Assembly: GCA_918797485.1 (NCBI GenBank)
Contig: CAKKNE010000006.1
Coordinates: 496,001-560,000 of the forward strand
Reading direction: 5' to 3'
Origin: Pelagomonas calceolata
Lineage: Eukaryota; Sar; Pelagophyceae; Pelagomonadales; Pelagomonadaceae
DNA: 64,000 nt
Shown: positions 2,618 to 54,780 of the stretch, in pieces
Layout of the letters: every line of letters starts with the position of its first letter
Numbering within the stretch: the stretch's first letter is position 1
Made by a program: the position numbers and the translations under genes
The notes under the pieces: generated by a model
What the model was told of the DNA's origin: nothing
The model's database searches: none
The model's input: only the letters and a program-made list of their open reading frames with translations

Positions 2618-5066
2618 ATGGGCAAGAAGACCGGCGGCTTCCAGGCCTTGGGCCTAGATGCGCAGCTCCTCAAGGGCGTCCTCGGCATGTATTCGCAACC
2701 GACGCCCGTGCAGCGCGCCGTCCTGCCCGCGGCTCTGGAAGGCCGCGACGTCGCCTGCATGGCACGAACCGGAGCCGGCAAGACCGCGGCCTTCTTGATA
2801 CCGCTACTGCAGCACGTGACGCGATCGAGGCGGAAGGACGAGCCCCCCTCCGCGACTGTCCTGTCGCCGACGCGCGAGCTCGCCCTGCAGACGTACAAGT
2901 TCAGTACAAAAATGGCCAAGTTCTGCGTCGGCGTTGACGGCGAACGCTTCTCCCAAACACCGTTGGTCGGTGGTGAAAGCATCGAGGGCCAGTTCAACGC
3001 CCTGGCGAAGCGACCGGCAGTCCTCCACGCGACGCCGGGCCGACTCGCGCACTTGCTCGAAGAAGCGCCGGCTTCTCTCATCACGCTATCAGCATGTAGA
3101 CTGGCGGTCTTCGACGAGGCGGATCGGCTGTTCGAGATGGGCTTTGCGTTACAACTCCAACAGTTGTTGCGGGCGATGGCTCCATCTAGACAAACTTTAC
3201 TATTTAGTGCCACGATGCCGCGGGCCCTGGCGCAGTTCGCGCGCGCTGGTTTAAAAGATGACGTCGCTCTCATTCGATTAGAACAGGAGACGAAGCTGTC
3301 CGACACGCTGCGAGTGGCCTTCTTCCTGACGAGACCTAGAGATAAAGTGGCCGCATTCTGCGCTTGTCTGAAGTTAGTGGTACCCGACCCGTCGAAACTG
3401 ACCATCGTCTTTGTCGCAACTCGCCACCATGCGGAACTTTTATTAGCTTTATGCAGGGTGGTGTTTCCCGAGAGAAAAGCCCATGCTATATATGGTACTT
3501 TGGACCAGCAAGCTCGCACGGACCACCTCAAGGCCTTCCGCAAGGGCGACGCGCCGTTACTCATTGTCACTGATGTTGCTGCAAGGGGTCTAGACGTCCC
3601 GCTCGTCGATGCAGTCATAAATTACGACGCGCCCGCGGCCGCGCGACTCTTCGTCCATCGGTGCGGGCGGGCCGCGCGGCAGGGGCGGCCGGGCTTGGCC
3701 GCTACGCTCGTGGAGCCCGACGAGCTGCCGTACGTCGTGGACTTGCACCGGTTTTTGGATCGGGAGCCCTCGGACGACTCCGAACCGTATTCGGTCAAGG
3801 AGTGGACTCCCCAACAGGTGCACTACGGCCAGATTCCGCGGGAAGTACTAGATGCAGAATTATCAGTACTGGAGAACGCTAGAAAGGACGACTCGTCGCT
3901 ACCAGCGCTCGAGAAAGTGGCTTCGAACGCCAGTCAACAGTACAAGCGGTCTAGGCCCTCGGCGTCGAAGAAGGCCGCGCAGGGTGCCAAATTGCTACGA
4001 ACGTCCGAACCGCACCCGTTGTTCAATACCGGCAGCTCAGACGCTTTACGGAGGGCCATTTCCGGCTACCGGCCGCCCCAGTCCATCCTCGAGCTCAAGT
4101 CCAAAGATGAGTCGCTGGGTGCCGCTGCCAAGGACTTCCGCGCGAAGATCGACCGGAAAAAGGCCCTCGAGGAGCGGCGCTTGCCAGTGCATAAATCAAA
4201 TTGTCGCGGCGCGTCTCCGCCACTGCTGAATCATGATCTCCACGCCATCGACGCGACGCCTGCTCGATGGCGTGGCAATGGGAGTCTCAAACCACTCGAT
4301 TCGGTCAGCACCCGGACTCACTGGTTGATTTATGCGCAGGCGTTTGCAAGCCGCCGAGGCCGCCGCCGAGGCCGCCGCCGCCGACGACGACGACGACGAC
4401 GAGGAGGCCGCGCCCGCACCACCGCCGCCCCCGCCACCCGTGGAGCGCAAGCGTCGATTATCAAAGGCCGAACGGCGCGCGCTCAAGACCGGCCAGGCAC
4501 CGCGCGTAGTGCCAAAGAAAGCCAGTACGTCCTTCAAAGATTCCACATATATACAATATGGAGACGCGCGCCAGGAGGAGCTGGATCATTTACTGAATGA
4601 CGCGAGGAGGGACGACAGTGCCGCGGGCGCGGGATTGCAGATGCTGGAAGAGGCGTTGCTCGATGTGGCGCCCGACGAGGCCTTAGATATGTTGAAAAGG
4701 AAGTCCATGCACAAGTGGGACGCGCGCAAAAAAAAATATGTGCAGCAGAGCGTCTCGGAAATCATCGACACGCGCGGCAAGAAGCAGAAAAACGAGTCCG
4801 GCCAGGACGTGAAGAAGGGCGCGACGCGGGGCGAGCTCTACCGGAAGTGGCGCGAGCGCAAAGGTGCTGACGGGGAGAAGGTCGACTACCGCGGGGCCAA
4901 GGGTTCTCGCGGCAAGGCGAAGAAGAAGGCTCCCTCTACTGCAAGGCCGGTGAAGGATGAAGTGAGAAATGCGGCGCAGATCGCCAAGCAACGTAGGGAG
5001 AAGCGCGACCTGGCGCTGAAAAATTTACCGAAAGCTAAACGGCGCGCCCTGACGCATAAGAAGTAG
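2618..5066 (+). CDS. DDX54: DEAD-box RNA helicase, DDX54/Dbp10 family, one intron
   Basis: An ATP-dependent RNA helicase for nucleolar large-subunit ribosome assembly. The N-terminal core has every DEAD-box motif: ARTGAGKT (49-56), PTRELA, TPGR, DEAD, SAT, ARGLD and HRCGRAAR. The C-terminal half, in a different frame, carries the Dbp10-type tail (STYIQYGDARQEELDHL followed by basic runs, ending near RRALTHKK). The two frames must be joined across an intron carrying a mobile core. The preferred model is exons 2618-4212 and 4340-5066 (GT-AG, phase 2, 773 aa), which uses the acceptor shared with the intron at 22711. The alternative 4187-4358 also keeps frame (758 aa). The first bases of exon 2 encode an Ala/Asp-rich stretch. 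It converges on ribosomal eS26. Confidence 0.9.
4187..4338 (+). mobile_element. Introner in DDX54 with terminal inverted repeats, core palindrome and target duplication
   Basis: This 152-bp insert lies between near-duplicate flanks: 4176-4186 GGCGCTTGCCA and 4339-4349 GGCGTTTGCAA (9 of 11 match). Its ends are inverted repeats: TGCATAAATCAA at 4188-4199, and TTGATTTATGCGCA at 4325-4338. Near the middle, 4240-4275 is a palindrome with 12-bp perfect arms (CCACGCCATCGA and TCGATGGCGTGG). The spliced intron is inferred as 4213-4339, whose AG combines the element's terminal A with the first G of the 3' target copy. The 35-bp stretch 4242-4276 is identical, as reverse complement, to 22743-22777 in another gene's intron. 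Confidence 0.85.
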
Positions 5067-5136
5067 TGTTTGTTATCCAGACGCCACCGCCGCGATCGAA
5101 GAGAGATAGACTAGTATTTTTTTACAGCCGCTACAT

Positions 5137-5448
5137 CTAGCGGCGGAAGCGCGGCGGCGGGTCGCGGTTGCGCCGGTCCGTGCGCGACCGGGAGCGCACG
5201 ATGCGCTGGTGGACGGCGGCCTCGATGCAGTAGTACTGCTTGATGTAGATTTTGGGTAAGGCGTACGTCTCGAAGGCGGACGCGTCGCGGATGTCGCGCA
5301 TGGAGGAGGCGTCGACGATGTTGCGGACAATAAAGCGCTTGATGGCCTTGTCCTTGGGGATGGCCTTGCCCGTCGACGCGCAGCGCACGCGGTTGACGTG
5401 GCCGCGGCCTTTTTTGTTGCGGCCGTGCGACCGGCGCTTGACGGTCAT
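5137..5448 (-). CDS. RPS26: 40S ribosomal protein eS26
   Basis: A 103-aa protein aligned end to end with eS26: [37 protein letters not shown] and the C-terminal [11 protein letters not shown] are all recognisable. It is a small-subunit protein near the mRNA exit channel that binds 18S rRNA's 3' end. The usual zinc site is two CxxC pairs. Here residues 23-26 read CAST and 74-77 read CIEA, so only the first Cys of each pair remains. The C-terminal extension of animal and plant eS26 is absent. A probable 5' UTR intron acceptor (CTACAACACAG) ends at 5469, just upstream of the ATG at 5448, and an introner arm lies a few bases further up. Confidence 0.95.
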
Positions 5449-6206
5449 GTTTTTTTGTTGTTGACGACCTGTGTTGTAGTAGGGTGAGCGTCGATGGCGT
5501 CGCCGGCTGACGATGGTGTGTGGGCGTCGTGCTGCGACCGGCGCGGCGTCTCGCTCTGTCGAGCGGCCGCCGGTGCGGCGCCTCGCTCGATCGCGCGGCG
5601 CGGCCTCGCTGGCGCGCGAGCGTGCCGCAGCTGCCGGCCGCGGCGGCTCGCAAGCTACTGTTGGGTGCCACGGCGCGGCGCCGGGCGTCCCGCGAGCGCT
5701 TTTGAGCCGCCGGCGGCTGCTCGCTGCACAGGTCCCACAGGGATCGCTGCTCGCCGAGATTTTGCAACCAGCCTCGCTGCGGCACAGATGGAGACCTCGT
5801 AGCTTCCTTTTGTAGCGTGGACGCGTGAACGGACGCAGCGGCGGACGTGTAAAGCCTATTCGCTTTTAATTGAGCCGGCGATGGCCACTAAAAACGCTAA
5901 AAATCCGCTCGTCGAAACGGGGCAGTAACGTATTGCTCCATGCCTGCAAGGATGGCTCGCGACGCATGGACGAAAAATTCGAGGCTCTGATCGGCCGGTT
6001 TGCCACAGCGTGCCGGCGCTGGCATTGGGCAGCCGCGTGCGCCGAAGCGGTGGTGAAGTAGGGCCGCTGGGACGCCGGCGACGCGGCACGGCCACGGTTG
6101 CGCCCGCGCCGCGACTCCTGCGGCAGCGAGACCGCTTGGACCACTGCCCAAGCAAGCACCCTGCCCAAGCACCCAACGACAAGCCGCCGACGCACGGCTA
6201 AGAAGG
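5449..6206. other. Divergent promoter region with introner arm
   Basis: This 758-bp gap separates eS26 (minus) from the WD40 gene (plus). At 5489-5503 the string GCGTCGATGGCGTCG matches the introner core arm, and on the minus strand it sits about 20 bp upstream of a good acceptor at 5469. This suggests a 5' UTR introner in eS26. Nothing else could be supported. Confidence 0.5.
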
Positions 6207-8963
6207 ATGGCCGAGAACGCCTTCGCCCTCACGGCGGACGGTATCGAATTGAACGAATTTGGGAAATTAGATAAGGAGGACTGGGACTGGGGCCACCTGC
6301 AGCCCGGGCAATTTCGGTTCTGCTTTCTGCCGAGAACTCCACTCAGACGACCAGGGGACGGCGACGAGTCGAGCGACGTCTCCTCAGTATCGAGTGACGG
6401 CATGATGGACCAGATGGCCCACATCGCCGAGGAGGGCCTGCACGCGGCCGGTGCGGCCATGGGTGCGGCCGCGGGCGTCGTCGGCCATGCTGCTTACGAC
6501 GCCTCGGCCAAGGTCGGCCGGGCCATGGCCAACGACCTCTTCGGCGACGATGCTGATCAAGTAGTACATAATGTGGAAGTAGCGATCGAGGACGCGGAGC
6601 GCTACGCTGCCGAAAAGATGGACGAAGCTGCGCAAGCGCTGCATGCGGCCGAGGAGAAGGCTTCGGCCGTGTTGCACGCGGGCGAGGACCTCGCGAAGAA
6701 AGTGGGTGGTGAAGCGCTACATGCTGTGGGAGACGTCGGCGGCAAGGCGCTGCACCTGGCCGACGACGCCGCACAGGCGGTCGGTGCCGAGGTGATGAAG
6801 GATCTGGGGAAAGTTGGGGATGTCGTCGGTGGTCTCGGCACGGGCATGTTCAACAAGGCGAAAGGCTTGGTGGGCGTCGCGGGAAACGAGGAGCTCAAGC
6901 ACGCCACGGACGAGGACCTCGCGAAATCCAAGGCCCAGGCGGGTCTGCAACACGCTACTGAGGCAGACGACGACTCGATCTCCACCAAAATGACTGAAGA
7001 GGGCGTCGCCGAGGCCAAGGACGAAGAACCAGAGAAGAAGAAGAAGCGCCGGTCCTGGTTCGGGTCTCGAGGGTCGCGGCCGTCGACGTCCGAGTCGCGA
7101 CCGGGCACCGGCGACAAGCCCAAACGGCGAAGTTTCCTCTCCCGTTTTTCCAGAGGGAGTCGCGCGTCGACGCCCGGCGAAGGCGACGAGAGGCCTCGGA
7201 GTCGGGACGACGACGACACGCACACCTATACCGAAACGATTGATGATACCGCCTTCGACGAGACGACGTTGGACACCGAGGTCAGTGACTCAGCGTGATT
7301 TCCAGCCTTTTCCAACTTCAACTTCGCGTCGATGGCGTCAACGCGGTGCCACACCGCCGTGACGCCATCTTCATGATCATCAGAGAGTCTACGCGTCGCG
7401 TGCGGGAGCCGCGGCCGTGTCGCGACGCTGTCGTTCGACACAGGCCTACGAGCTGCGCGAGCGCGACCGGAAGCGGGCGAAAAAGGCCATAAAAGACGCT
7501 CGGGAGTGGCTCAAGGACCCGACGCCGCTCTGGGCGCGGACGACGAACTGGCGGTTTGATATCTGTGTGGGAATCACGCCACGCCGTCGACGCGGTGCGT
7601 CGAGTCGCGATCTCGCCCGAAATGCGCTCAAATCGAAAATGAGACCACCCACGGCCTCGTCTGACGGAGGCGAGTCGCGTCGATGGCGTAGGACGCCACA
7701 GTCACCGGTCGATGTCCACGCAGGTTGATGCTCAAGGGGCCCCTCAAGGAACCGCTCGCGCTGCCGACGAAGGACGCGGCGAACGAACCTATAGTGTATC
7801 CGAAGCCTATTGAAGAATTTGAGGGTATCCGATCACTCATCGAGAATGTGGTAGCGTTCCTGAACCCTCGGTCGATCGGCCGAGCGGTCCGACTCGGGAG
7901 GCGATGGGCGGAAGTGGGTTATGACGAGCCGCTCTACTACTGTTTAGTACAAGTCGGCCAACCGAGTGTGACGATCTACGCGTTTCAAGCTCGAGTTGAT
8001 GCGGTGGTCCACACGGGCGAGGCGATCCTCGCGAGCGGCGACAAGGGCGTGAGTGCGTTCCACGTCGACACGGGCGAGTTTTTAGGGAAGACGTCGATCC
8101 GAGATACCTCCGCAATACCTACCTTGTTTATTACGGGCCACTCGCTCTGGACTTGTAGTCGCAACGGGGCCATCCGGGAATGGAGTTTACCACATGACGT
8201 GCGCAATATTGAATTCAGAGCGCAAATGTGGGAGCACAACGCCGAGGTCAACGACCTGACCTGGACGCGGAACAACCCGATGTTTGGGGGTTCGGCCACG
8301 GAGCATCCGCGGCTCGTGTCGTGTTCCGACGACCGCTCGGTAAGGGTCTGGGACCCCGACACGCACTGTTCCACGGCGGTGCTGAATCCCTTTTCTCACC
8401 GAAGTGCGACGATGCGGTCCGTGTACGTCTCGCAGGAGCATCTTTATGTTGGGGGTTCCGATGGCACGGTTTATGTGTACTCCGTGGACGGCTCGACGCG
8501 ATCCCTACGGAACAGGGAGAAGAAAAGAGTGGGATTGGAGCTCATCTACCCCCTGGAGACGGAGCTGAAGTCCGGGGACGACGTCGTCGGTGCGATGGCG
8601 ATCGCTCATGAGAGGACTGACATGTCTCGGTTGTTCGTGACGTCCTGGTCCGGTACGGTATATGTCTGGAAAATTCCGAAAGAGGATCTGGACTATGTGT
8701 TGATCCATGAGATCCGGCACCATACTCGTAGAATCAACGACGTGTTGATAACGCGGGCGCACTTCCTGACCTGTTCCGATGACGGTACGATACGGTATTA
8801 TGGACTGTGTCACGGTGACCAGTACGAGAAGGCCTTGGAGAGGGTTGTTGATTGCGGGTCTCGGGTCAAATGTATTCATGTGACGCCAGGCGACCCGGGA
8901 GTGGTCGTGGCCGGTTTAGCTGATGGACGGGTCCTGGTCTACGAGCTGGGGAACATCATGTAA
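6207..8963 (+). CDS. WD40 protein with amphipathic helical N-terminus and F-box-like segment, two introns
   Basis: About 822 aa. Residues ~65-240 form Ala-rich amphipathic helices with 11-residue periodicity (AEEKASAVLHAGEDLAKK), resembling apolipoprotein, LEA or perilipin helices. A Ser/Arg/Asp-rich linker follows. After the introns come an F-box-like stretch (NVVAFLNPRSIGRAVRLGRR) and a WD40 propeller with repeats such as VSCSDDRSVRVWDPD and LFVTSWSGTVYVWKI. Intron 1 is 7281-7443 (GT-AG, phase 0, firm). Intron 2 is either 7567-7691 or 7599-7723; both are 125 bp and keep frame. It may be a lipid- or membrane-associated ubiquitin adaptor, but that is only inference. The stop at 8961 overlaps a strong splice donor (GTAAGT at 8960), so a different C-terminus is possible. 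Confidence 0.75.
7281..7443 (+). mobile_element. Introner (intron 1 of the WD40 gene)
   Basis: A 163-bp GT-AG phase-0 intron (GAG|GTCAGTGACT ... TTCGACACAG|GCC). It contains a perfect 10-bp inverted repeat, GATGGCGTCA at 7331-7340 and TGACGCCATC at 7360-7369. The 18-bp segment 7371-7388, TCATGATCATCAGAGAGT, is identical to a segment of the intron at 24031-24124 in another gene. The sequence after the donor also resembles that intron's start. Confidence 0.85.
7567..7723 (+). mobile_element. Introner (intron 2 of the WD40 gene)
   Basis: Inverted core arms lie at 7579-7594 (CCACGCCGTCGACGCG) and 7676-7692 (CGCGTCGATGGCGTAGG), separated by about 80 bp. The segment ends in GATGTCCACGCAG (7711-7723), the same 13 bases that end the introner in the glycosyltransferase gene (12424-12436). 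Splice sites are ambiguous: 7567-7691 (phase 0) and 7599-7723 (phase 2) both keep the frame. Confidence 0.7.
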
Positions 8964-9115
8964 GTTACTTTGTTTGTTCGATGGCGTGGGGGGGGTGGCA
9001 AGTCGTCGTGGCGACGGCGTGCTTGCAGCCACGCGCCGCGGTTCCAAGTCCGTGCGGCGGGCACGCCTCGGCGGCATACTCAAGTCTCACGCCATCGAGC
9101 AGACTCGGACGCCAG
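8960..9115 (+). mobile_element. Probable introner overlapping the stop codon or 3' UTR of the WD40 gene
   Basis: A consensus donor GTAAGT begins at the last base of the final ATG codon. Core arms occur at 8978-8990 (TCGATGGCGTGGG) and 9088-9102 (CACGCCATCGAGCAG) in inverted orientation. Acceptor-like AGs end at 9102 and 9115. With the latter, the protein would end a few codons later at a TAG near 9127. Whether it is spliced cannot be decided from sequence. Confidence 0.5.
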
Positions 9116-9151
9116 AAAATGCAAGTAGATATATCCCACTTACTCGTGCAA

Positions 9152-10093: not shown

Positions 10094-10520
10094 GGCCGCT
10101 TCTTGTCTGCCGCGGCGGCGCTGGAGTGTAGGCGCAGCGCGTCGGAGCAGTCCTGCGGCTCCTCGCTGGACCCGGTGTGCTGGAGCGTCGAGCAAGCGGC
10201 CCAATCAAGCTGAATCGCCGGCAAGGCTGTGAGCTAGTGTGTCTGTCTACGCTAGGTCATGCCTTCAGGGGTAAGGAGGGGTCATCCATGAGTACTTCAT
10301 CGGCCAGGAGGAATCACGGGCTCATGCCTTTGCATAAAGTGCCAAAATAAAATGATGCATGCAATTGCTGAGACTGGGACACGGCAAAGCCATCAGCCAT
10401 GCATTGATGGTGCAGCGCCATCGCATCGCTGAGCAGCGGTAGCGACGCAGCGATCGGCAGCAAAAGCACACCGGCGGGCAGCACAGAGGCATCCCGAGCA
10501 CCTGTACAGCCGGCAACAAA
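10094..10520. other. Divergent promoter region
   Basis: A 427-bp gap between eIF3g (minus) and the glycosyltransferase (plus). No gene or introner core was seen. Confidence 0.4.
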
Positions 10521-13500
10521 ATGCGGCCGTGCTTCCACCTCGTCGCTATCGCGGCGGCCGCCACGGCGGACGAAGCCGCCTGGACGCCCCGCGACCTCGA
10601 CGACGCCACGCTGCGCCTCATCCGCCACGCGCGTCCGTTCCAGCCCAGCGAGCAGGCGAAGCTCTCGCAGCTGCCGGCGCGCTTCAGCCGCTGCGCGACG
10701 CAATTGGCCTATTTCGACGTGTACGACCCCGAGGCCTGCGGTCATAAAAGGGCTCCATCCTGTAGTGGCGACCACTGGCCGTCCGTGTCCGTCGTGCTGC
10801 CCCATCGCGGTCGCGAGTCGACGACGGCGCGAGCGCTAGCTTCTGTCTTGGCTTCATTTAGATTATATTGTGGCAGTGGGGAAGTCGTGCTAGCTAGAGA
10901 CGGTCCAGCATTAGATGAGACCGCAGCTAAAAGGTTGACGCATCTCGTGGAGCGTGTTTCATCACATTGGGAGGACATTGAGGTCGTGGAGACAAAACCA
11001 AGGTCCATGGCGGCGGGCTACGGGGATGCTGTCGCGACCGGTTGTCGACGGGCCACCGGAGACTATGTGCTCCTGTTGAACAACGACGTCACGCTAGCGC
11101 CTTTGACGTTAAGAGTGCTAGCCGCGCACTTGAACGCGAGAAAAAGCACAGCGGCGGTCGGCGCGAGACTAGTAGACGAGCACGGCGAGCTCCAGGAGGC
11201 CGGCGCCGTCGTCTTCAAGGACGGCGGCGCGCTCCAGTTCTCGAAGGTCTGGGGTAGCACTTCTCCATTATTCAGGTACGTGCGACGCGTCGACTACGCG
11301 TCCGCGGCGTGCCTGATGGTGAGGTCGTTACTACTAGCCGGTGGTTTTGATGAGCAATTTAGACCAGCATACTACGAGGACACGGACCTAGCGATGCGAC
11401 TGAGGCACTCGCATGACGCTGCGGTCGACTACAACCCCTTCGCCGTGGCGGTCCATGAAGGGTCCGCGACGTACTCGGGCGACCGCGCCGCGGAGAAGGA
11501 GCGCCAGATGGACCGGAACCGGGACACCTTTGTCAGGAAGTGGTCGGGACAGTTGACCTGCCACTATGCATCCCATATACCGTGGGCCAGTCGTGGTGCT
11601 TTTTTGCTCGCGACGCGCCAGGCTCTTGCACGAGTGTTGGTCTTAGATCACGACACGCCCTGCGCGGCGCGCGACTCCGGCTCGGTGCGCATGCTCAACT
11701 TCATTCGCGTTTTACTAGGAAGGCGGCACCACGTGACCTTCGCTGGCGTCGAGTCCGACGCGGACGACGCCTGCGCGCTGCAACTCCAAGCCCTGGGCGC
11801 CCACGTGACCTCAGCCGGCCTGCTCAAGTTCCGGAGTCTATCAACAAAGTGCGACTACGACCTCGTTGTGGCTTCCAGACGATCGGTGGCCAAGGCCTGG
11901 CTGCCGCTGCTGCGAGCCGTGTGTCCCGAGGCGCCTGTTGTATTTGATACGGTGGACTTGCACTTTTTAAGGGAGATCCGGGAGGTCTCCGTCGCCAAGG
12001 GTTATGACTATGATCAATCACTCTCGGCCTCGGAGAACGCCCGGCGCTTACTCGCGCAGTACCCTAACTTACAGAATACGAAGACCTGGCGTCTGTACGA
12101 AGAAGGGTATACGACAGAGCTACGAGTGATGAACGCTTCCGACGCGACGATCGTCGTCTCGGGCGTGGAACGCAGGGAGCTCGAGGCCCTGAAGCAATCA
12201 GGTGAATTACGGTCTTCCCTCCCAGTGGCGGTTGTGTCGAACATCCACGACATTGTTCAAAGACGCATGGAGCGCTCCACGTTCGGCCAGCGACGCGGCG
12301 CGTTATTCGTCGGGAATTGGCAACGTACCCGCGTCTCGCATGTTTTCGGCCCAAGCTCGGACACGACATACACTCGACCGTATTGATATAGAAACGCCTC
12401 ACTCCGACCACGAATTGAACTTTGATGTCCACGCAGGCAGCATCCCCCGAACGTCGACGCCGTGAAATTTTTGCTGGAAGAGGTTTTAGTGCTGGAAACC
12501 TCATTACCGGACGACTTCGTGGTCCACATCGCCGGGGCGGGCACGCAGCCGGACTGGCTTAAATCAATCACGAAGGCCGGGCGGTTTGAAGTCGTGAACC
12601 ACGGGTTTTTGGCGTCGTTGGCCCCGCTCTATGCTTCTTGTAGGGTAGCACTGGCGCCATTACGGTACGGCGCCGGCGTGAAAGGGAAAGTCAATCAAGC
12701 GATGCTCCATGGCGTTCCCGTGGTCGCCACTCCAATAGCCGTGGAAGGCATGCACATTTCTAGTGGCGAGGCCGTCGTGGCCGACGGTGCCGTTGAGTTT
12801 GCCCGATCATTAGCTGAGATCTATGTCGACGAGGCGACGTGGCGTCGCGTCGCGGAGGCGGCTAGATTGTCGGTGGCCAAGCATTTCTCTGTTGATGTCG
12901 CTGCCAAAAGGTGGGCGTCTTTAGAGTCGGAGCTGGCTCTACGGTCCGACGCGTTTCGCCACGCGCTGTCCGAGGGTTCGTCGGCGTTCCAGAAGCCTTG
13001 TCCTACGTCAGGTAGGTACGGGACTTCGTCAGTCGTGGCCTTGTCTGATAAACGATCGGACCCGCCTTCCTTGATTCCCGTCCCTCTTAAGGTAGGAGAA
13101 ACGTTGAAGTCCGCGGCACCTTTATCTGATTTGCGATATCACGGAGTTAATGAAGAGGAATTAATGACAGTATGCTCGGCTCATAGGAATTGCGTCGGCT
13201 TCTGCTTACGACCGGAGGCCACGTCGCGCGTCTTCCTGTCGCCCATTGAAGCGACGACCAAGGCCGAGGGGCCCGGGCCGGCGCTGTGCCACGCGGCGCC
13301 CGGCGCGCCGCCCTCTACGGGCGTCGCCTTTACTCGTGTCTCCCAGAAGGCGCCGCACTACGTCTTCTCGGCGTCTTATTCATCAAAGAAGTGGCGCGTG
13401 TCGCGCGACGCGGCGGAGGCGTTTTGTGCTCAGGATGCGACGTGCACGGGCTACTGCCAGAACCCGTCGGGCAATACGCTGTTCTACGATCGGAAGGTCG

Positions 13501-13664
13501 GCGACATGCGCCCTCGCGGCAAGGCCGACGCCGTTCCTCCCGGTTGGGTCTGCGCGAAGGCGAAGCGGTATCAAATGGCGCCGGTCGCGGCCGCCCTTTT
13601 GGAGCCTCCACGGCCCAGGAAGGCCTCGGCGAAGCGGGCGGCGGCGCACAAGGGGGGGCTCTAG
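10521..13664 (+). CDS. GT2-GT4 bifunctional glycosyltransferase with Cys-rich C-terminal modules, one intron
   Basis: About 1,011 aa from exons 10521-12332 and 12441-13664. A short hydrophobic N-terminus resembles a signal peptide. Residues ~85-320 are a GT2 (GT-A fold) transferase: VSVVLPHRGR, YVLLLNNDVTL (DXD-like), GGFDEQFRPAYYEDTDLAMR. Residues ~350-800 are a GT4 (GT-B) transferase with GNW...HPPNVDAVKF, APLRYGAGVKGKV and the E-rich donor-binding region. The tail has two Cys-rich segments (about 870-985) like PAN/apple modules. It should act in the secretory pathway to build a surface glycan, transferring two sugars. The intron interrupts the conserved GNW-HPPN motif. The frame was bridged with GT at 12333 and AG at 12440 (phase 0); other GT-AG pairs break the frame or the motif. 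Confidence 0.85.
12325..12436 (+). mobile_element. Introner in the glycosyltransferase gene
   Basis: The insert splits the codons of a conserved GNWQHPPN motif. Left flank codons TGG CAA CGT ACC (W Q R T) look like a decayed copy of the right flank's CAG CAT CCC (Q H P), consistent with a target duplication starting GGCA. The 3' end GATGTCCACGCAG is shared with the introner ending at 7723. The likely spliced intron is 12333-12440. The hairpin core seen elsewhere is not evident, so this may be a different subfamily or an internally deleted copy. Confidence 0.65.
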
Positions 13665-21517: not shown

Positions 21518-24500
21518 TTATTTCTCTGCGGTCGCAGCATCAGTAGCCACGGCGACCGGCCGCAGGTCCTTCATAGACGTAGGCCGCGCGATGCTCATAG
21601 TTCCGCCCAGCAGCCCGAGCGGCTCGCCGCTAAACGACGCGTACGCGCGCAGCCCGTGCGAGGACCGCGCCCGCTTCTCCGTGTCGGCCTCCCGCCGCAC
21701 GTCCGCCACGCGCCGCCGCGCCGCCGCGACGGCCCGCAGCACCTTGTGCGACGGGCCGGGCGCCGGGAAGAGGGGCACGGCCGGATCGGGCAGTGCCGGA
21801 AGCTTCTTCCTCGTCCGCGTCGGCGAGGCGGGCGTCGGCGGCGCCGTCAGCGCGAGACGCGTGCCGTCCGGAGGTACTAAATCTAAAGCGTCCAAGCCCG
21901 ACGAAAGCGCGAGCGTCCTGCGTCGTCGCAATCCATCTATAACCGTGTCACAGGATAAGGGCGGCAGCTTGCCCAGGTGTTTCTCCCTATATCTATCACC
22001 GATCGACGTGAGCACGGGAACCATCTTGGGCGTCGTCCGCAGGAGCAACTCGCCGTAGGAGACACATTGCGGGTCCCGAGATCTTTTCCTGACGAGGGGC
22101 TCGACGGTCCTTAGTACAATCTCGTCCTCCTGGTCATCATCCGGAAATCTAGGTTCGAAGGGCGCGTAGACGATGTCGTTCAACCGTTGCTGTTCAGCGC
22201 GAATGTACTCCTCCTCCGCGTCGACGCTCTCCTCGTCCTCCTCTTCCACAACTTCTTCTGCGACAGGCAACCGTTGCAATGCCAACAAGGGCGCGATGGC
22301 CTGCTCGGCGTAGAAGCGCAGACAGTTATTGGCGACCTCCGCAGCTTCGAGTCGCTGCATCGCCTTGTGCACAGCTTTTTGAGCCTCCGCGTCCAGCCGA
22401 TCGAGCTCATCTTGGACCTTCTTTTGCGCGCGTTGTTTCCTTATCTGAACAAACAACGCCTCGACCCTGTCCACCTCAGCCTTATTAGCACGAACCCGAG
22501 CCGCCCGCTCGTCCTGGTGCTTCTTCCGGCGAGCCTCCTCTCGTCTTTGACGAGCCCGCTCCAAGCGCGCCTTGCGCTCCTCGGCCTCCCTGCGCGCTCG
22601 CTCTTCTTCTTCGAGCTGCTTCTGATACGCTCGATCTCTCGCCTCGTCGCCGTTGTCGAGGCCCGAGCCGACGCCTCTTGTTCTGTTAAGACCTTCGGAG
22701 TCCTCGAAACCTGTGCGGAATCAACCAGTGAGTCGCGTGATCGCCACGCCATCGAGCAGGCGTCGCGTCGATGGCGTTTCAGGACGCAGCTCGAAACCCT
22801 TCTCGACCTCCGTCAGCAGCACCTGCCGGTCCTCCTCGTAGAAGACTTGCGTGACGTCTCGTACAGCTTTGTGCGCATCGACCGTGACCGAAAAGGCACC
22901 GACCGCGTCGTACGTGACTTCGAGCTCAAGTAAAGCCTGTCGCATCAGTGCACTCCGTCGGTCCTCGTCGACCATGCCTTTACGAGAACCGCGCTGGCGC
23001 TTGCCCTCCTCGCGCGCCCATTTTTCATCCGTCCATTTCTTCGCCGCGTCGGCCTGCGCGGAAACGGTGTCGCGACGCGGCCGCGTCGACGGCGTCGCGG
23101 CGGCCGCGTCCACTTGAAGAACATATCAATGGACTCTGAGTCGCGTACCTGGAGCCTTCTCAGTAAATCTAATTCTCGCTGTAATCGGTCCGCCGAGTAC
23201 CACCGCAACATTTCATTGACGGACCACCGCTCGTCACTCGTTGAGGGATAGACTTGATACCGAATAGGAGGGGGTGGGGGTCTTGCGGGTACGGCCAGCG
23301 GTGGTAAACTCAGTATGAGGAACTGATTCTGATTGGAATCGGGCGTCGATCCGGGCAGGTCCCGGCAGGCTCGAAACCGTCTCTTACATAATTCGTTCTC
23401 CGCGGCTTTGGCCAGAAATACGGCACGCATTGGAGAAGCACCGTACCACCGCTTGAAGGCGTTCGAGCACTGATCGAGACCGGGAATGCCATCAGCCTCC
23501 GCTTTATCTAAGACGTCTTGGTCCTCGTGGGCTCTCTTACACTCAAACTCGGTGAAGACGCGATTCCGCGTCTCGGCATCGGTCGAGTACCACTTGACAA
23601 ATACCTCGACTCTGGATAAACGTTCAGGCGTCTCGAAATCTTCCGGTTCTGGTACTTGAATCATCTGCTCCAAGGCCGAACCGACGACATCGGGCAGCAA
23701 GCACGCGAGCCGTAGTTCATTGTTCCGCGACGTAGAATCAAGGGAATCCCACAAAGGCGCCGTAGGTTCGCCCTTGTCTTCCCGGTTCTCCAGCGAGTCG
23801 AGCGCCATCTGGTCCGCCCGCTTGATGACGACGTCCTCGTCGAAGTCGCCAAACAGCTCGATGTCGTCCGGGTCCGGCAATTCATCATCTTGCGTTGCTC
23901 TCTGGATCTTCTTCTCCTTCGCGCCCCTCTGCATGCGCAGCATGGTCATGATCATGCGCACGTAGACGCGCAGGTGCTTTCTTTTCGGGGGCACGTAGTT
24001 GGCCAGCGCTTCCTCGATCTTGCCCTTGACCTGCGCGGATTCATCCCGTCACGGCTCACTCTCTGATGATCATGACGACGGCGTCGCGGCGACGGCGTCG
24101 TAATTCCCACGCAGAATCACGGACCTCGTCGACCTTGTTGGCTCTGCCTCCCAAGAATGCTGTGCGCGCTTTCAGGCGCGCCGCAGCAGCAGCTAGGCGC
24201 GCCTGGACGCGCAGCGCCTTCGCGGCGGCGTCCTTCTTGCGCTTCGGCGTACTGACACGCGTCGTGTGCGTCCGCGTGGGAGAAACCGCTTCAGAGCCGG
24301 AGGGCGACTTGACGGCTTCAGGGACGGCCTCGGCCACAACCACGGTCTCCGGCTTCGCCTCGACCACCTTGGCCACGGGCGCCGGCAGTGGTTTCAGAGC
24401 GGCGACCTCCACCACCCCGTCGTTGGGCTTGCTCGAAGCTTTAAATGAGGCCTTGTGCGCGGCCTCCTTCTTCGCCTGGGCCCGACCGCCTCTGACGAAC

Positions 24501-41056: not shown

Positions 41057-41066
41057 GACTAGCAAT

Positions 41067-44388: not shown

Positions 44389-44530
44389 GAGCCTAACTTT
44401 ACGTTATTTCTAGTCGAATCTTCTAGTCGCGGCGCCTCCCTCGGCGTCCAGGCTCTAGCTCTCTCCGCTCCAGAGTTGCTCTGCCCAGTTGGCTTTGTCT
44501 CGCGTAGCTGGCGCTCGTGCAAGAGCTGCA

Positions 44531-45373: not shown

Positions 45374-45398
45374 TCTGTTAGTAACGACATAGTGTATT

Positions 45399-46091: not shown

Positions 46092-46382
46092 AGCGTTCCC
46101 TGAGATGTGCAGTACTTGCCGTAGATGGCAAAACCGCCGCAGCCAAGAGGCGCTTTTTTCAAGTTTTTTGGATTGATACCGTAAGGACACGCGCGTTAAG
46201 CTAAGACGCACGCGTCGATATATAATGGACAGCGCGGTTGCGGGAGGCCAATGGCTCGTCTAACACGGCGCAAAACTGCGCGCCGGTGCGCCGCGCATTT
46301 GCTGGAAAAACCCGTGCCAGTCCTCGACCGCCGGGCACAGGAACGCATCGTCTAGGAGCGAGCCAATAACGACATAATGATA

Positions 46383-48347: not shown

Positions 48348-48601
48348 TTGTTCTTCTGGAGCAGCCAGGGGTCGCCGCTGCCTCGCGCCATCGGCTTCAT
48401 AGCTTGTTTCACCCACCAGGCCAAGGCTACCGCGTGGCCGAGGATCAATGCGACGAGGCCGAGGCCTAATAGAGGATGGTCTGTGAAGAAGAAGGTCATT
48501 CGTAGGCCAGCTTCCGCGGCGCGCGCACCAATATAATCCTGGAGCTTGCTAGCGTATCGACACACTAGCTCTGGTCCACTTTTGCATTGTGCCGCCTCCA
48601 T
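48344..48601 (-). CDS. Small single-pass membrane protein
   Basis: 85 aa from the ATG at 48601. A hydrophobic helix lies at about 39-62 (DHPLLGLGLVALILGHAVAL), and the C-terminus is basic and polar. No family recognised. Its TGA overlaps the ATG of the dioxygenase gene on the same strand in the pattern ATGA. It may be a separate gene with its own transcript, a dicistronic partner, or, if a sequencing frameshift exists, an N-terminal anchor of the dioxygenase. 57 bp separate its start from the divergent 48659 gene. Confidence 0.45.
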   Translation of the reverse strand: MEAAQCKSGPELVCRYASKLQDYIGARAAEAGLRMTFFFTDHPLLGLGLVALILGHAVALAWWVKQAMKPMARGSGDPWLLQKNK

Positions 48602-48658
48602 TTGCGTGCGGGCTGCCTCTAGATCGTCAGAACTACGAGACAAGCCTGGCCACGTGCG

Positions 48659-49372
48659 ATGTCGGTGCTCGACGACATGGCGGATCATTTGATGGGCCTC
48701 GCACCGCCGGAGTCGCAAGGCAGGGCCTCTGGCGTGCTTATGGATCATCAAGACTTGCTAAAACATGTCCTGGGCATGTGCGGCGAAAGTGAACGAAGCA
48801 CGGAGGCGCTGTTGCGGGACCTCGCACAAGATGGACTGCAAGGCTGTACCAGTGCCTCTGGTTTTGTCGCCACCGAGGCCACAGGCCCGACGCATCGACC
48901 GCGGCGCGACGACGGCCCCGTGGGCACGTTCGAGGTCGACTTCTCGGGCACGCTCTACGAAGGCATCAATTACGTGACGGCCCCGGGCTCGTCGACGCGG
49001 CTCGCGCGAGGCGTGATGGCCCGGCACGGGATGGTCTTCGAGGGAGAGGTCGATCCGGCCATCCCGGGCTACGTACGAGTAGCGCGCGAATCCACCGGTT
49101 TGTACACCGGGCTATTTGTGCCGACGTCGTTCGAGGGCCGCCTGTGCGTGAAAAAAGTCGCCGATAGTACTCCTCTCTGTCCGGCGCGGCCGCGGACGCC
49201 TCCCGAGCAAGGCGAGTTGCCTTCTGACGTGAAGGGCGCCTGGGACCGCTACTTCGCGGAGTCCGGCGTCTCCGTCGAGGAGGTCGTGGCCGAGGCCTGG
49301 GCCGCCGACGGCGACGCGTCCTCGACGACGTCCTCGTCGTCCTGCGGCAGCGAGGGCTCCCTGCTAGAGTAA
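48659..49372 (+). CDS. Unknown protein
   Basis: 237 aa. The first ~60 residues are helical, the central part is beta-rich (FEVDFSGTLYEGINYVT, GMVFEGEVDPAIPGYVRVARES), and the tail is acidic/Ser-rich. No family recognised. No ATG alternative nearby. Confidence 0.6.
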   Translation: MSVLDDMADHLMGLAPPESQGRASGVLMDHQDLLKHVLGMCGESERSTEALLRDLAQDGLQGCTSASGFVATEATGPTHRPRRDDGPVGTFEVDFSGTLYEGINYVTAPGSSTRLARGVMARHGMVFEGEVDPAIPGYVRVARESTGLYTGLFVPTSFEGRLCVKKVADSTPLCPARPRTPPEQGELPSDVKGAWDRYFAESGVSVEEVVAEAWAADGDASSTTSSSSCGSEGSLLE

Positions 49373-49481
49373 GAAGGCGTAAACCCACTAGAGAACGTTG
49401 AGAGTTGCGCGCCGCGCCGCTTGACGAAGCGAGCGCTGCGCCGACGCCAGGGCTGCCCCGAGGCCGCCTGCGGCGCGCAGG

Positions 49482-50768
49482 ATGGCGGACGTAGACGCGC
49501 GGCCCTGGCACGAGGCCAAGGGCCTGGAACTGGGCAACTGGTTGCGGAACAAGTGCCCGCAGCGCCAGTTCGGCGGCCAGGCGAAGGTCGATGGGCTCGT
49601 GCGCACATTAACCGCCGCGCACGAACGCCTCGAGAAGGCTGAAACAGATGAAGAGCGGTGTCTAGCCTGGGCCCACGTCGCGCTGGACCTCGAGGCGTCC
49701 TGTAAAAGGGCCGGCGACTTCCACCAGCTCTGGGTCGCCAACTTGTTGCAGGGCACGCCGTCGGAACCGACGACCGAGGCTGACAAAGAGGCTCAGACTG
49801 AGACGAAGGAGACGACTGAGACGGAGGCACAGTGCGAGATCATCGAGCCGGCCCCGACGCCCAAGTCGACGTCGACGGTACTACCACCGCTGGACCTCGC
49901 GGCCGCCTCCGCCGTCTCCGTCGAGCCGTTACTCTCGAAGACCGAGCGCCCGAAGACCCCGAAGATCGACCCGCCCGGGTCCCAGAGCGCCCGGGCGTCG
50001 ACGCCGAGCCCGGAGGAGAAGCCGAATCTGCTCAAGATGTCCATGCTCGAGCGCCAGGAGTACGTCCGCAAGCAGAAGCAGGCGAAGCTCGAGAAGGCTC
50101 GGCAGGCGAAAGCTGACGCCGAGGTGGCGGAAATGCGGGCTCCTCGTTTAAATAAACCGCGGCGCGTCAATGCAGCTCCAGTTGTCGCTCTCGCCGCCGA
50201 GAGGCTCAAGAAGCCCCTCAAGGTGCGCGACGAGAACAAGGCCAAGGCAGCTCCCAAGCCTGTGGCCGAGAAGAAGAAAGCGCCTCCCAAAAAAAAGAAA
50301 GTTGCGGCCGCGAAGCCTGAACCCCCGAAGAAGGAAGATAAAGATGAGCAGTTCATGACCCGTTTAGCCGCGTTGCGCCACGACGCCCAGGCCAAAATCG
50401 CGCAACAGGCGGCCGAGGAGGCGGAGGCGAAGATCGCGCAACAGGCGGCCGAGCAGGCCGCCGCCGCCGTGGACCCGGCAGAGGCGGCGAGGGCTCTGAT
50501 ACGGACCGAGGTCGAGTTCGACCGGAAAGTTGATGGAAGATACTTCTATCGGTTGCGCCACGCGGACGACATCGAGGCCAAGTCGATCTACCGGAGGCGC
50601 GCGGGCAACGGCGAGGGCGTCGCCTTGTCCGTCGGGCGGGACGCGAAGAACGCGGAGCACGTCCTGCAGGTGCTTTTTGACGAAGACCTCTGGAACGCGA
50701 CGACGGCCCACGACTACCTCGTGCAGCACTACTCCGTGGAGTACTCGCGGAGACTCGAGAGTAACTAA
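49482..50768 (+). CDS. Unknown Lys/Ala-rich protein
   Basis: 428 aa. Helical N-terminus (ELGNWLRNKCPQRQFGGQ), a long low-complexity Lys/Ala/Pro/Glu middle (about 95-330), and a folded-looking C-terminus (about 330-428: ALIRTEVEFDRKVDGRYFYR, HVLQVLFDEDLW). The middle has twice the string KIAQQAAEEAE. No known domain. The stop lies 1 bp from the stop of the convergent gene. Confidence 0.65.
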   Translation: MADVDARPWHEAKGLELGNWLRNKCPQRQFGGQAKVDGLVRTLTAAHERLEKAETDEERCLAWAHVALDLEASCKRAGDFHQLWVANLLQGTPSEPTTEADKEAQTETKETTETEAQCEIIEPAPTPKSTSTVLPPLDLAAASAVSVEPLLSKTERPKTPKIDPPGSQSARASTPSPEEKPNLLKMSMLERQEYVRKQKQAKLEKARQAKADAEVAEMRAPRLNKPRRVNAAPVVALAAERLKKPLKVRDENKAKAAPKPVAEKKKAPPKKKKVAAAKPEPPKKEDKDEQFMTRLAALRHDAQAKIAQQAAEEAEAKIAQQAAEQAAAAVDPAEAARALIRTEVEFDRKVDGRYFYRLRHADDIEAKSIYRRRAGNGEGVALSVGRDAKNAEHVLQVLFDEDLWNATTAHDYLVQHYSVEYSRRLESN

Positions 50769-50769
50769 C

Positions 50770-51288
50770 TTATTTCCCCCTAGAAGGCGCCGAGGCCATC
50801 GTCTCGACGCAGCCGTCGCCGTCCATGTACTCGAAGCGCCCCTCCAGGAGCTTGTTCCGGTACGCTTCTAACCAATCAGCGACAGATGATTCGAGGCGGT
50901 CGCCGCGGCCGTCGCCCATCTCGTACTCGTAGACGGCGTCGTCGCCTACCACCAATAACGCGTCGTCGATGTCCCTCGCGAACGGCACATAAGGCGCATC
51001 TACATCGGATAGCATCTTACCGATGGACTGCGGATGGAGCAATTCATAGCCCTCGAACCAAATCCCGGTACAAGCTTCCCGCCAGAGCTCCTCCAACGCT
51101 AATGGTAGATCGCGTTTTTTGCTCAACTCATCAATAACGCTTTGGTCGGCGCCCTTCGCGTCGAGGTCGGCGTGCTGCGTGAACCAGGCCACGATGTCCT
51201 TAGAGCACTGGCGCATCTCGGAGGGCGTCATCTCGCCCTTGCGTTTATTTCCCTCCTCGGCCACCTCGATTTTGCCACTCGGCGGCAT
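50770..51288 (-). CDS. Unknown acidic protein, SUKH/SMI1-like features
   Basis: 172 aa from the ATG at 51288. The pattern LALEELWREACTGIWFEGYELLHP and YVPFARDIDDALLVV resembles SMI1/KNR4 (SUKH) proteins, which bind partners in cell-wall signalling or bacterial immunity. Confidence in this assignment is low; the fold call needs a profile search. Confidence 0.5.
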   Translation of the reverse strand: MPPSGKIEVAEEGNKRKGEMTPSEMRQCSKDIVAWFTQHADLDAKGADQSVIDELSKKRDLPLALEELWREACTGIWFEGYELLHPQSIGKMLSDVDAPYVPFARDIDDALLVVGDDAVYEYEMGDGRGDRLESSVADWLEAYRNKLLEGRFEYMDGDGCVETMASAPSRGK

Positions 51289-51890
51289 CGTTACTGCTGC
51301 CCTTGGCTACTGCTGTGCGTGCCAACCGTTGTGAGGTTTTGAGCGCTGCGCTGTGATGCCTTGGAAGTCACCGCTGGACCCGATTCGTATCGGTTTGTGC
51401 TGCCAAACCGATACAAATAATCGACGGGCGCTGAACCCGCACGCTAGCTACGGTACGTTCCCCATCGCCTATGCGGTCGGCGGGGACTTCTAAGAGGAGT
51501 CCTGGGACGAGTAACCGAACGACAGCGCCCTAATTGCATAAATGATGCAAAGTTCAGAAGGCAAATAAACCAACACGCACGCGCGGCACGGAGCGGCGCG
51601 GTCGCGACGGTTCTGACCGCGCACGACCCGCGCGAGACGCGCGCCGGCCGCTGCGGCACGAGCTACGTGCAATTTGAGAAGAAAAAAAGTCCCAAAATTG
51701 CTTTTGCCAGGCCACTCCAATTCCTAAGCGCGATGCCCACGCCCTTCGAGCACGCGTGGCAGCGCTTCGGGACGTCCTGCGTCGGCGCCGGATGAACATC
51801 CAACGTCGCGTCGATGGCGTGGAGATTGACGTGTCGACTCGCCGAGCATTCGGTCACGCACGCAGGTCGCCGGCCCGGACGGGCATTTTC
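51289..51890. other. Intergenic region with introner arm in a probable 5' UTR
   Basis: About 600 bp. GTCGCGTCGATGGCGTGG at 51805-51822 matches the introner arm, followed by an acceptor GCACGCAG at about 51864, ~27 bp upstream of the ATG at 51891. This looks like a 5' UTR introner; its donor may be a GT around 51775. The rest holds no recognised gene. Confidence 0.5.
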
Positions 51891-52401
51891 ATGGCGTCCT
51901 CAAATGACTTCGTGAAGTCGAATTGTTGCGTATTATGCGACGACCGCCACCACTTCCGAAGCCTGCGCGAGAAGTACGAGCACCTCCGGAGCAAAAAGCA
52001 TCTCTTCAACTACCTCGCATGTAAGTTCCGCGTCGCCAATGAGACGCCGTCGACGCGTCCCCCGCGCAGACAAGAAGCATTGCGCCCACCTCATGATCGA
52101 GAGGCGTCAGCTCGAGCGCGTCGAGGCCGCGGCCGCGTTACGCCGCCACCCCTTCTGGCCGCACGGCGACAGCGCTTCCGCGTCATTTCTTGACGCCGTC
52201 TTGCTCGACTACATCATTTGCTTCGGCCAAGTCCGCCGGGACGCCGTCGCGGAGGCCTGGCGCCGCCACGTCCGGAAGGAGCAGAGTTCGTTAATAGCGC
52301 TCGCCGCCGCGCGCACCGGCTCGGGACACCTCGTCGTCGAGCTCGTCATGCCCTTCGTCGCCGGCCGGCGCCTCGGCGACGCCCCGTTCTACGCGTACTA
52401 A
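51891..52401 (+). CDS. C2H2 (U1/matrin-type) zinc-finger protein, one intron
   Basis: 153 aa from exons 51891-52020 and 52070-52401 (GT-AG, phase 1). Residues ~10-40 contain CCVLCDDRHHF then EHLRSKKH, matching a C-x2-C...H-x5-H matrin/U1-type finger, common in RNA-binding or splicing-related proteins. The C-terminal part (ALRRHPFWPHGDSASASFLD onward) is helical and unrecognised. The intron is 49 bp, very short, and contains GACGCCGTCGACGCG. Confidence 0.7.
52021..52069 (+). mobile_element. Very short introner-related intron
   Basis: 49 bp, donor GTAAGT, acceptor CCGCGCAG, phase 1. It consists almost entirely of an introner-like arm, GACGCCGTCGACGCGTCC, and splice signals, so it may be a minimal relic of a longer element. 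This intron joins LFNYLAY to KKHCAHLMIER without a frame break. Confidence 0.7.
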
Positions 52402-52431
52402 AACATGTGTTATCCGAGCTTCGCCCTCGGA

Positions 52432-52446
52432 CGCCGTCGACGCGGG
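52432..52446. repeat. Isolated introner-like arm between convergent genes
   Basis: ACGCCGTCGACGCGG lies in the 47-bp gap between the stops of the C2H2 gene and the charged protein. It is short and may be chance in GC-rich DNA, but it recurs in introns of this window. Confidence 0.35.
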
Positions 52447-52448
52447 CC

Positions 52449-54780
52449 TCACACGAGCAACTTAAAGGACGACGGCGGCTCGGCGTACAAGCCAGGTAGA
52501 ATTCCCTTCGACATGGGGAAGAGGCACGCCGGTAAGACGGGCGGCGGATCTTTTGCTTTGGGGGCGCGTGCGCGCCAGCCGTGCGTCGAGGCCCGGTCCT
52601 TCGGCGCGCCCTTGACCTTGCGTTTCCGGCGCTTCTTCTCGACGACGACAACTTCTTTGTGCGCCGACTGGGGGACGCGTTTGTTCCAGGGCGGCCGCAG
52701 CGCCGGCGCGGAGGAAGGCCGCTTTTTCACACTCGTAGACGTCGCCTCGGGGATCCACGACGTCGGGGGCGTCTTCGGCGGCCCCAGTAACTTCCTCTGC
52801 GCCTTCTCCTGGGCTAATTTTCTAGAAAGCTCCCGTGATCTCTCCTCATTTTTCTTCCGACGCCTTGCTTTCGCCTCCGCACCAAAATCTCTCTGCAAGA
52901 CTTCGGCCCGTTCGTTGCGCCGTAAGGCGGCGGCCAAGTCTCGACGCCGTCGAAGAGCGCCGGTGTCCGCCGTCCGCGGCCGCGCGACGGGCGACGTTTT
53001 CACCGCGAAGGACTCCTTGAGGTTCTTGAGCGGTCTAGTCAGCCCCGCGGTCGACGGCCGCGCGTGATGCACCATGCGTCGGTTGAACGCACTCCGCAGG
53101 TCGATGTACTTCTGCGCGAGGAGATTCCGTCGGTGGAGCAAATGCTCGGCCTTGACGAGGCCTTCGGTCTTGGACGCGTAGTCGGCGTCCGACTGCACTT
53201 CTAGACCTCTCTTCAATTGTTTCCCGGGATTCCAGTTCCTCATGTAGCCCGGCGCTTGCGGTCTTGAGGGTTCGGTAGCTTCGTCATCCTCAGTTTGATG
53301 CTCCCAGGTCAGGTGCAAGTCAGCTGCGGCGGAAGCAACAGCATCGCGAGCCGCTCGAAACCGCCGTAATTCGGGATCCTTGGTCTCGACCACGGGACTC
53401 TTACAATCGGCCCACGCCGGTTCGTCGTCCGGGTCTTTGTACTTGCCTCGGCGCGCCGCTACTTCGAGCCAAAAGGCCACAAAAATACCTTCCAGTTGTC
53501 CTAGATCGGCGGGCTGGCCGACTTTCCCGCCGACGCTCGCGAAGAAGTCCCTTGCTTCCCAGACCGAGAAAGGTACATTTAACAAGGCCGTCCCCAGCAG
53601 CAACTCGGGAAACGTGTATGTAGTTTCATCTTCTTGCGTTTTGGCTTTCGGTCGGAGTCGCGCTCGCTTCCCGAACAAGTCGTGCACATCGGTAAAACGC
53701 TTGCCTTTTTTTGAACGTACGGCATGGGACAGTCTTGCACAAAATGTCGCCGCCCTACTGACTCGAGCTACGATTCGGCAATCATCGACCGTCTCGTCGA
53801 AGTCATCTAACATGCGGCGTCTCCGGCCCTCTATGAGCTCGATGACCTGCGTGGCGCAAATTCATTGCTCGGCGATGAGCAGGCGTCGCGTCGATGGCGT
53901 GGAGGTCTCGCCACGATAACATTCCTGCGCCGGCACGCGCCGCGTCCACGAAATTCTCTTTATCAGCATTGGTCTTCGACGAATCTTTGTAGGCTCTCCT
54001 GTCCAAGTCACATACCACATCGGTGCGCGCGGTCAGAAAGTTCGTCATGAGGTTGATCGGTTTTGCGGCTACGGTAGCGGCGTGAGACGGATCCCTCGCA
54101 CCTAATCCTGTCGACTTATGGCGCGACATCGATTTCAATGAACTGTGACCGGGGTCCGCGCGACAGCCGCTCCGGAACAACAGGAACTGGTGCTCGTGGG
54201 CCGGACTCCATCGCGCGGTTTCCGTACTGAGGGATGCGGTGCGATCGTCCTCGTACTGGCTTTCAAACGTCCGCCACAACCCTGCCATGGCTTCGAGGCA
54301 CGGTTCTGACCTCGCCAAGGAGTTCTGGGGGCCCTGGCCGCGACTGGGCCCGAGCAACCCGGGGTCGCCGGCGTCGTCGCGCTGATCCACGCCCGCGCGA
54401 TCCGCCCTTGCTATAGCCAGGAACTGCCTTAGTCGCAGCAAAAAGTGGGCGCCATGCGCGTGCCGTAGCTCCGCGAGATGAGCCGCGTGGTCTTCTTTCG
54501 CCTCGAGAATGAGGACGTCGGCGTAGGCTCTCGGCGGCTCCTGCGTCTCGGGGGCCGCGACGTCTTCCTTCGCTTCGTCGCTGGGCTCCGGCTCGGGCTC
54601 GGGCTCCGGCGCCGCTGCCGCCTCCGGCGCGTCAATAATCGCATCGAGCAAGTCGCCGAGGTCGTCGTCGGCCGCCGCGGCCGGCGCCGGCGCTTGGACG
54701 CCGGGCGTCTCGGGCTCGAAGTCGTCCTCGAAGTCGTCTCCATATGAAGCGGGCGTGGCGGGCGTGGCCGGGGCCGCCAT
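52449..54780 (-). CDS. Unknown charged protein, one intron
   Basis: 742 aa from exons 54780-53950 and 53846-52449. The intron (103 bp, phase 0) joins TNADKENF to VIELIEGRRRRMLDDFDE. The N-terminus is acidic (GDDFEDDFEPETP). The middle is helical. The C-terminal half is basic with coiled stretches such as KNEERSRELSRKLAQEKAQRK. No family recognised. Divergent from the DnaJ gene. Confidence 0.65.
53847..53949 (-). mobile_element. Introner in the charged-protein gene
   Basis: 103 bp, GT-AG, phase 0. On the minus strand it contains CTCCACGCCATCGACGCG and 24 bp (plus 53877-53900) identical to the core in DDX54 and the large WD gene. The partner arm has decayed (CATCGCCG), so the hairpin is partly lost. 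It ends with CCACGCAG, also used by introners at 7723 and 12436. Confidence 0.8.

Follow-up and report, generated by a model that had tools for sequence, protein, structure and literature searches.

Introners of the pelagophyte Pelagomonas calceolata as terminal-inverted-repeat elements with a predicted 5′ splice site in the duplicated target

Introduction

Can introns in several unrelated genes be traced to the insertion of one family of mobile elements, and if so, where do their splice sites come from? This question is raised by a stretch of 64,000 nucleotides from the alga Pelagomonas calceolata (GenBank assembly GCA_918797485.1, contig CAKKNE010000006.1, positions 496,001 to 560,000 of the forward strand), referred to as the window herein and numbered from its first letter. 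An earlier note, made from the letters of the window, had listed at least eight introns that share arms of a palindromic core and had proposed that they are introners, that is, non-autonomous DNA elements that become introns. Here, we followed the elements through the whole genome and into a close relative. The proposal was borne out by terminal inverted repeats (TIRs), 8-bp target-site duplications (TSDs), restoration of the reading frame and empty orthologous sites in the relative. We therefore consider it very probable that these introns are miniature inverted-repeat transposable elements (MITEs), non-autonomous TIR transposons which create an intron upon insertion into an exon.

Results

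A family of short elements bounded by inverted repeats and target-site duplications

The genome searched comprises 32,445,274 bases in 8 contigs, with about 62% G+C. Using intron a of the window (Table 1) as the query, we obtained 46 matches from the 40 candidates with the best scores; the majority of these matches begin no more than a few bases from the GTGCATAAATC end. Upon alignment, they proved to end in inverted sequences, C[TA]GTGCATAAATCAA...TTGATTTACGCACAG, flanked on the outside by 8-bp direct repeats. The family is defined by a TIR of 14-15 bp, which reads CTGTGYRKAAATCA inwards from each end, plus the flanking 8-bp TSDs. In 51 copies that were delimited by their ends alone, the flanking 8-mers were identical in 28 and had no more than two mismatches in 45, where 0.0 and 1.8 were expected from pairing the flanks of different copies. 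The TSD consensus is near-palindromic, GTCNNGAC. Short (roughly 60-240 bp), bounded by TIRs, flanked by a TSD of fixed length and devoid of an open reading frame (ORF), the members of the family are MITEs, and similar copies coincide with introns in unrelated genes, as introners do.

Genome-wide, the repeat ends gave 2,848 matches with at most one mismatch, compared with 6 for the control, and the 25-bp 5′ end occurred 354 times at the same threshold. Since each element has two ends, the count of repeat ends suggests that the genome holds at least about 1,400 copies. With regard to the chance-rate objection considered in the earlier note, the palindromic core, searched as CCACGCCATCGACGCG, was found to be enriched: there were 2,846 matches with at most one mismatch, roughly 1000-fold the 3 of the reversed control, and within the window 29 matches with up to three mismatches against 2.7 expected. 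A further sample consisted of 60 loci on contig C1 chosen solely for an exact core. Among these were many shortened copies and a second subfamily, in which a 203-bp body lies between perfect 14-bp ends (CTGTGTGGAAATCA), and six loci sampled by the core alone had perfect 14-bp TIRs and exact TSDs.

One introner, together with its flanks, is identical on contigs C3 and C6, which agrees with the large duplications at chromosome ends described for P. calceolata in PMC9481584. In viral contigs, no match was obtained with the 21-bp core, with the 25-bp 5′ end or with a 19-bp 3′ end, and 16-bp patterns yielded single matches only, with no terminal repeat nearby; viral carriage of the elements is therefore unsupported.

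Splice sites from the duplicated target and the inverted repeat

Gene strand and frame in the flanks of 93 elements were called with a codon model trained on long ORFs of the window, which used no splice or TSD information and, when tested on its own training ORFs, assigned the correct one of six frames to 264 of 280 fragments 198 bp long. Both flanks were coding-like in 74 of the 93 elements and lay on the same strand in 70 of these. When TSD1 and the element were removed, the two flanks shared a frame in 68 of the 70, where one third would be expected by chance. All 68 frame-consistent copies start their TSD on the gene strand with GT (52) or GC (16), whereas GT or GC stands at the opposite end in only 20 of them (p = 1e-20). 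This rule was independent of element orientation (42 sense and 26 antisense insertions), and among the antisense insertions only 10 of 26 had GT or GC at the element-sense end. The gene-strand 3′ ends were CACAG in 61 of the 68 and another NNNAG in the rest, a complete agreement qualified by the requirement for AG at one end when the elements were delimited. Phases 0, 1 and 2 were represented by 33, 19 and 16 introns, respectively.

Taken together, the frame agreement and the GT/GC rule point to a 5′ splice site supplied by the target copy and a 3′ splice site supplied by the inverted repeat in either orientation, such that splicing would add no base. An alternative 5′ splice site at the GT within the repeat, which would leave 10 nt in the transcript, was ruled out by the frame test. 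The gene-strand 3′ and 5′ repeats did not differ in conservation (0.78 versus 0.62 mismatches, p 0.25).

Empty sites and independent insertions in a close relative

A pattern scan of prokaryote genomes matched one contig, NZGT01000054.1 (9.9 kb), filed under the metagenome-assembled genome (MAG) of 'Spirochaeta sp. isolate MED672'. This contig is collinear with C6:2670000-2678000 at 83-89% identity over 8 kb and, as judged by its sequence, is evidently a misbinned pelagophyte contig with introners of its own.

In a kinase-like gene, the relative has an introner with the perfect TSD GTCGGCCG where P. calceolata has an uninterrupted GTCGGCCG. P. calceolata carries a core-bearing introner 13 bp further on, with the target copies GTCGCGAC/ATCGCGAC. 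The spliced products of the two lineages are equal in length and both open, LLSAEVVATYQLYL and LLSADVIATYQLYL, and we read the two introners as independent insertions 13 bp apart. Thus, the presence/absence comparison proposed in the earlier note does find introns missing at the same site in a close relative.

Upon comparison of the acetyl-CoA carboxylase (ACC) genes, we found two introns private to P. calceolata, one of them with cores, one intron private to the relative, and one site common to both with diverged content. Against human ACC1, the spliced P. calceolata ACC is gap-free at three of the four junction sites (intron A, the relative's private site and the shared site). Those private ACC introns that lack a core or TSD are less clearly members of the family. 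Elsewhere in the collinear C6 stretch, between well-aligned stretches, own-strand positions 1338-2733, about 1.4 kb, have as their counterpart in the relative an unrelated sequence of about 0.3 kb; the longer segment, that of P. calceolata, contains an introner with the perfect TSD GCGGCGAC.

Introns of the window

In a strict scan of the window, intron a alone was an intact family member; intron e keeps a perfect TSD but has diverged ends, and the remaining introns are eroded. Its ends, placed at 4187-4358 in the earlier note, are best read as given in Table 1, and those of introns c (7567-7723), d (12325-12440) and e (22711-22785) were corrected as well. With the earlier ends, the products would be truncated to 478 aa for intron c and 667 aa for intron d, and the frame across intron c is kept only by the 5′ end of Table 1. 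With the corrected ends, all host genes yield long open spliced products, namely 772 aa for the helicase, 857 aa for the WD40 protein, 1034 aa for the glycosyltransferase, 2506 aa for the gene with introns e, f and g, and 788 aa for the gene with intron h. The target copies of intron c are eroded (GTTTGATAT / GTTGATGC), and its 3′ end, GATGTCCACGCAG, is the sole feature that intron d has in common with it. Splicing out intron d gives FVGNWQHPPNVDAV, which lies inside a Glyco_trans_1_4 match that starts shortly before the junction and continues across it. A PDB search with the glycosyltransferase stretch gave no match, nor did an Rfam scan of the window.

Table 1. Introns and core-bearing sites of the window
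Feature	Position	Strand	Location	Observations
Intron a	4177-4339	+	DEAD-box helicase gene, 2618-5066	Sole intact family member in the window; GC-AG
Intron a, TSD1	4177-4184	+		GCGCTTGC
Intron a, element	4185-4339	+		Ends CAGTGCATAAATCA...TGATTTATGCGCAG
Intron a, TSD2	4340-4347	+		GCGTTTGC
Intron a, internal palindromic hairpin (core of the earlier note)	4240-4275	+		CCACGCCATCGA-loop-TCGATGGCGTGG
Intron b	7281-7443	+	WD40-protein gene, 6207-8963	Core with 2 mismatches; TSD not preserved; eroded
Intron c	7554-7723	+	WD40-protein gene, 6207-8963 (as b)	TIR-like ends CTGTGTGGGAATCA...TCGATGTCCACGCAG
Intron d	12320-12436	+	Glycosyltransferase gene, about 10521-13664	GC-AG; no core; 3′ end as in c
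Intron e	22711-22797	-		Perfect 8-bp TSD GTTTCGAG; hairpin; 3′ end GGTTGATTCCGCACAG; element ends diverged
Intron e, TSD copies (gene strand)	22790-22797 and 22703-22710	-		GTTTCGAG
Intron f	23054-23148	-	Same gene as e	Core-like segment; TSD not preserved
Intron g	24031-24124	-	Same gene as e and f	TIR-like ends CTGCGTGGGAATTA...TGAATCCGCGCAG; TSD not preserved
Intron h	53847-53949	-	Gene 52449-54918	Exact core; eroded ends
Partial core	1537-1552	+	Spacer separating the first gene from the second	No element ends seen
Exact core	51807-51822	-	Upstream of gene at 51.9-52.4 kb	

Other parts of the initial description stood in modified form. The 35 bp shared by 4242-4276 and 22743-22777 are indeed identical; their opposite orientation reflects gene strand only, because the host genes lie on opposite strands and both copies are sense to their genes. 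The first of these hosts is indeed a helicase, but the second, taken for a WD protein, is the gene of introns e, f and g, which has a single weak beta-propeller match; the WD40 gene of the window is the one with introns b and c. The core had been ascribed to every listed intron, but intron d lacks it even at three mismatches. Partial cores had also been noted in untranslated regions and intergenic DNA; the spacer between the first two genes contains one, and copies outside a coding context are rare in our sample. A minimal intron near 52021 had been counted with the family, but neither a terminal repeat nor a target duplication was seen there. This segment, 52022-52070, starts with GTAAGT, a 5′ splice site more canonical-looking than those of the introners, and may be an ordinary intron.

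The internal hairpin and other explanations for the introns

Among 20 complete elements met by accident beside those searched for, 12 had the hairpin and 8 had no recognisable one. While the core is enriched, it does not define the family and is an internal hairpin only. It is also more conserved between subfamilies than any other stretch, at about 93-100% across some 40 bp, and about 10 of the 60 exact-core loci showed by eye no visible terminal repeat. These observations would fit a core that moves or functions in its own right, such as a terminator or a splicing hairpin under selection, with the introns as secondary carriers. However, most core loci lie within repeat-bounded elements, and 8 of the 20 complete elements do without the hairpin. 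Within the stem, 59 of 72 one-sided changes break pairing and compensated double changes are few (4, with a shuffled mean of 0.6 and maximum of 5). We consider this explanation very improbable, and with stem changes mostly disruptive there is no good evidence for the hairpin as a selected RNA structure. The hairpin is a conserved internal segment of the MITE, and its role is only putative.

If, instead, ordinary MITEs had landed within pre-existing introns, they would be uninformative on intron origin. The window introns do differ in length and content, and there are a few core loci without recognisable element ends next to exon borders. Yet the TSD copies directly adjoin coding sequence, the flanks return to a common frame in 68 of 70 cases once TSD1 and the element are taken out, and the exon of the kinase gene is uninterrupted in the other lineage. 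For TSD-bearing copies this scenario is already contradicted, and overall we regard it as very improbable. As a mode of intron spread, reverse splicing of intron RNA into transcripts with subsequent reverse transcription would suit the common intron ends and the location in coding genes. This mode is refuted by the 26 of 68 genic copies that are antisense, does not predict inverted terminal repeats or 8-bp target duplications, and retains next to no probability.

Candidate mobilising enzymes

Profile searches of the genome for MULE and IS1595/Merlin transposases gave no match; those for P-element (PF21787) and KDZ transposases gave none in this genome and none in any control genome, a negative that does not show absence. 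Dimerisation domains of the hAT type occur in two long intact ORFs, at C4:4499982 and C5:1221320, one of which also has DUF659. These are possible candidate transposases, and no matching terminal repeat was present within the short flank examined beside either gene. An 8-bp target of the GTnnnnAC type fits hAT or P elements, and among the former Hermes and hobo have an 8-bp TSD with a GTnnnnAC-type preference. The introners resemble hAT MITEs in exactly this respect, but differ in their termini, which are CTGTG in nearly all copies as opposed to the usual CAGNG/TAGNG of hAT elements. Among the listed matches, paired 5′ and 3′ ends were spaced by 120-203 bp in 10 of 13 cases.

Discussion

In the mechanism that we propose for these MITEs, insertion into an exon would duplicate an 8-bp target, with a preference for the near-palindromic consensus. 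The predicted 5′ splice site is the GT, or in about a quarter of cases the GC, of the upstream target copy, and the predicted 3′ splice site is the AG of the downstream terminal repeat. Because the element ends are inverted copies of each other, either orientation ends in TTGATTT..CACAG on the transcribed strand, and removal of TSD1 with the element restores the reading frame that preceded insertion. The spliceosome would then use the GT or GC of the TSD and the AG of the repeat, with TTGAT in the repeat as a putative branch site. Copies lacking GT or GC on the gene strand would be lost by selection, and a transposase encoded elsewhere would move the element. Over time, repeats and target copies would erode, leaving ordinary-looking introns such as b, d, f and h may be.

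Several points weigh against this account. Splicing is predicted here from DNA sequence, and the sample of 93 elements, for which similarity of the TSDs served as a filter, is skewed to copies in a better state of preservation. No clear TSD is seen at introns b, d, f and h, so that their membership is argued from the core, the 3′ end or context. Lastly, we found no autonomous partner with the same ends, and there were no long elements among the listed end pairs.

A wider proposal would be that the element ends are ready 3′ splice modules (branch-like TTGAT plus CACAG) and that the transposase prefers a near-palindromic target starting with GT on both strands, such that the elements are pre-adapted to form perfect introns either way, and that introns were still being added, sometimes independently and a few bases apart, as Pelagomonas lineages diverged. 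We judge that this could equally well prove right or wrong.

In a 2016 Nature study by Huff, Zilberman and Roy, the introners of Aureococcus anophagefferens were reportedly described as non-autonomous TIR elements with direct repeats at their ends, and for the introners of Aureococcus and Micromonas the published mechanism, cited in PMC9481584 and PMC7789003, has element and duplicated target each provide a splice site, with exact splicing. The elements studied here are likened to those of A. anophagefferens, a pelagophyte of the same algal class, by this anatomy of TIRs, direct repeats and one splice site each from element and target, with GT or GC at the TSD start and NNNAG at the element end in all 68 copies. 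To this, we add for Pelagomonas the measured proportion of GC 5′ splice sites and the near-palindromic target. Element and target each giving one splice site is one of several introner modes in Gozashti et al. 2022 (PMC9860276). The Aureococcus sp. introners presented there (Fig. 2F) likewise have an 8-bp TSD and a pelagophyte host, but they contain both of their splice sites and the transcript gains 12 bp, whereas in Pelagomonas the predicted 5′ site lies within the TSD and nothing would be added. For P. calceolata RCC100, the main text of Guerin et al. 2022 (PMC9481584) puts the number of introns per gene at 0.45 and reports a peak of intron length near 210 bp, found in both species and termed the characteristic length of Aureococcus Introner Elements. 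That main text names Introner Elements and contains no sequences, TIR, TSD or copy-level analysis. The Pelagomonas elements would work by a mechanism known from Aureococcus, in a species already suspected of introners; in the literature examined we found no account of TIR/TSD anatomy for Pelagomonas, of an orientation-independent GT/GC rule or of independent neighbouring insertions.

With target site, element and splice sites to go by, and an empty site in a relative for comparison, the birth of an intron is directly readable in this family, whose anatomy is unusually clean. The persistence of genic insertions is almost fully predicted by GT or GC of the duplicated target on the transcribed strand, and therefore population genomes and RNA data from an abundant ocean alga can serve to test how new introns originate, in which orientation and in which phase.

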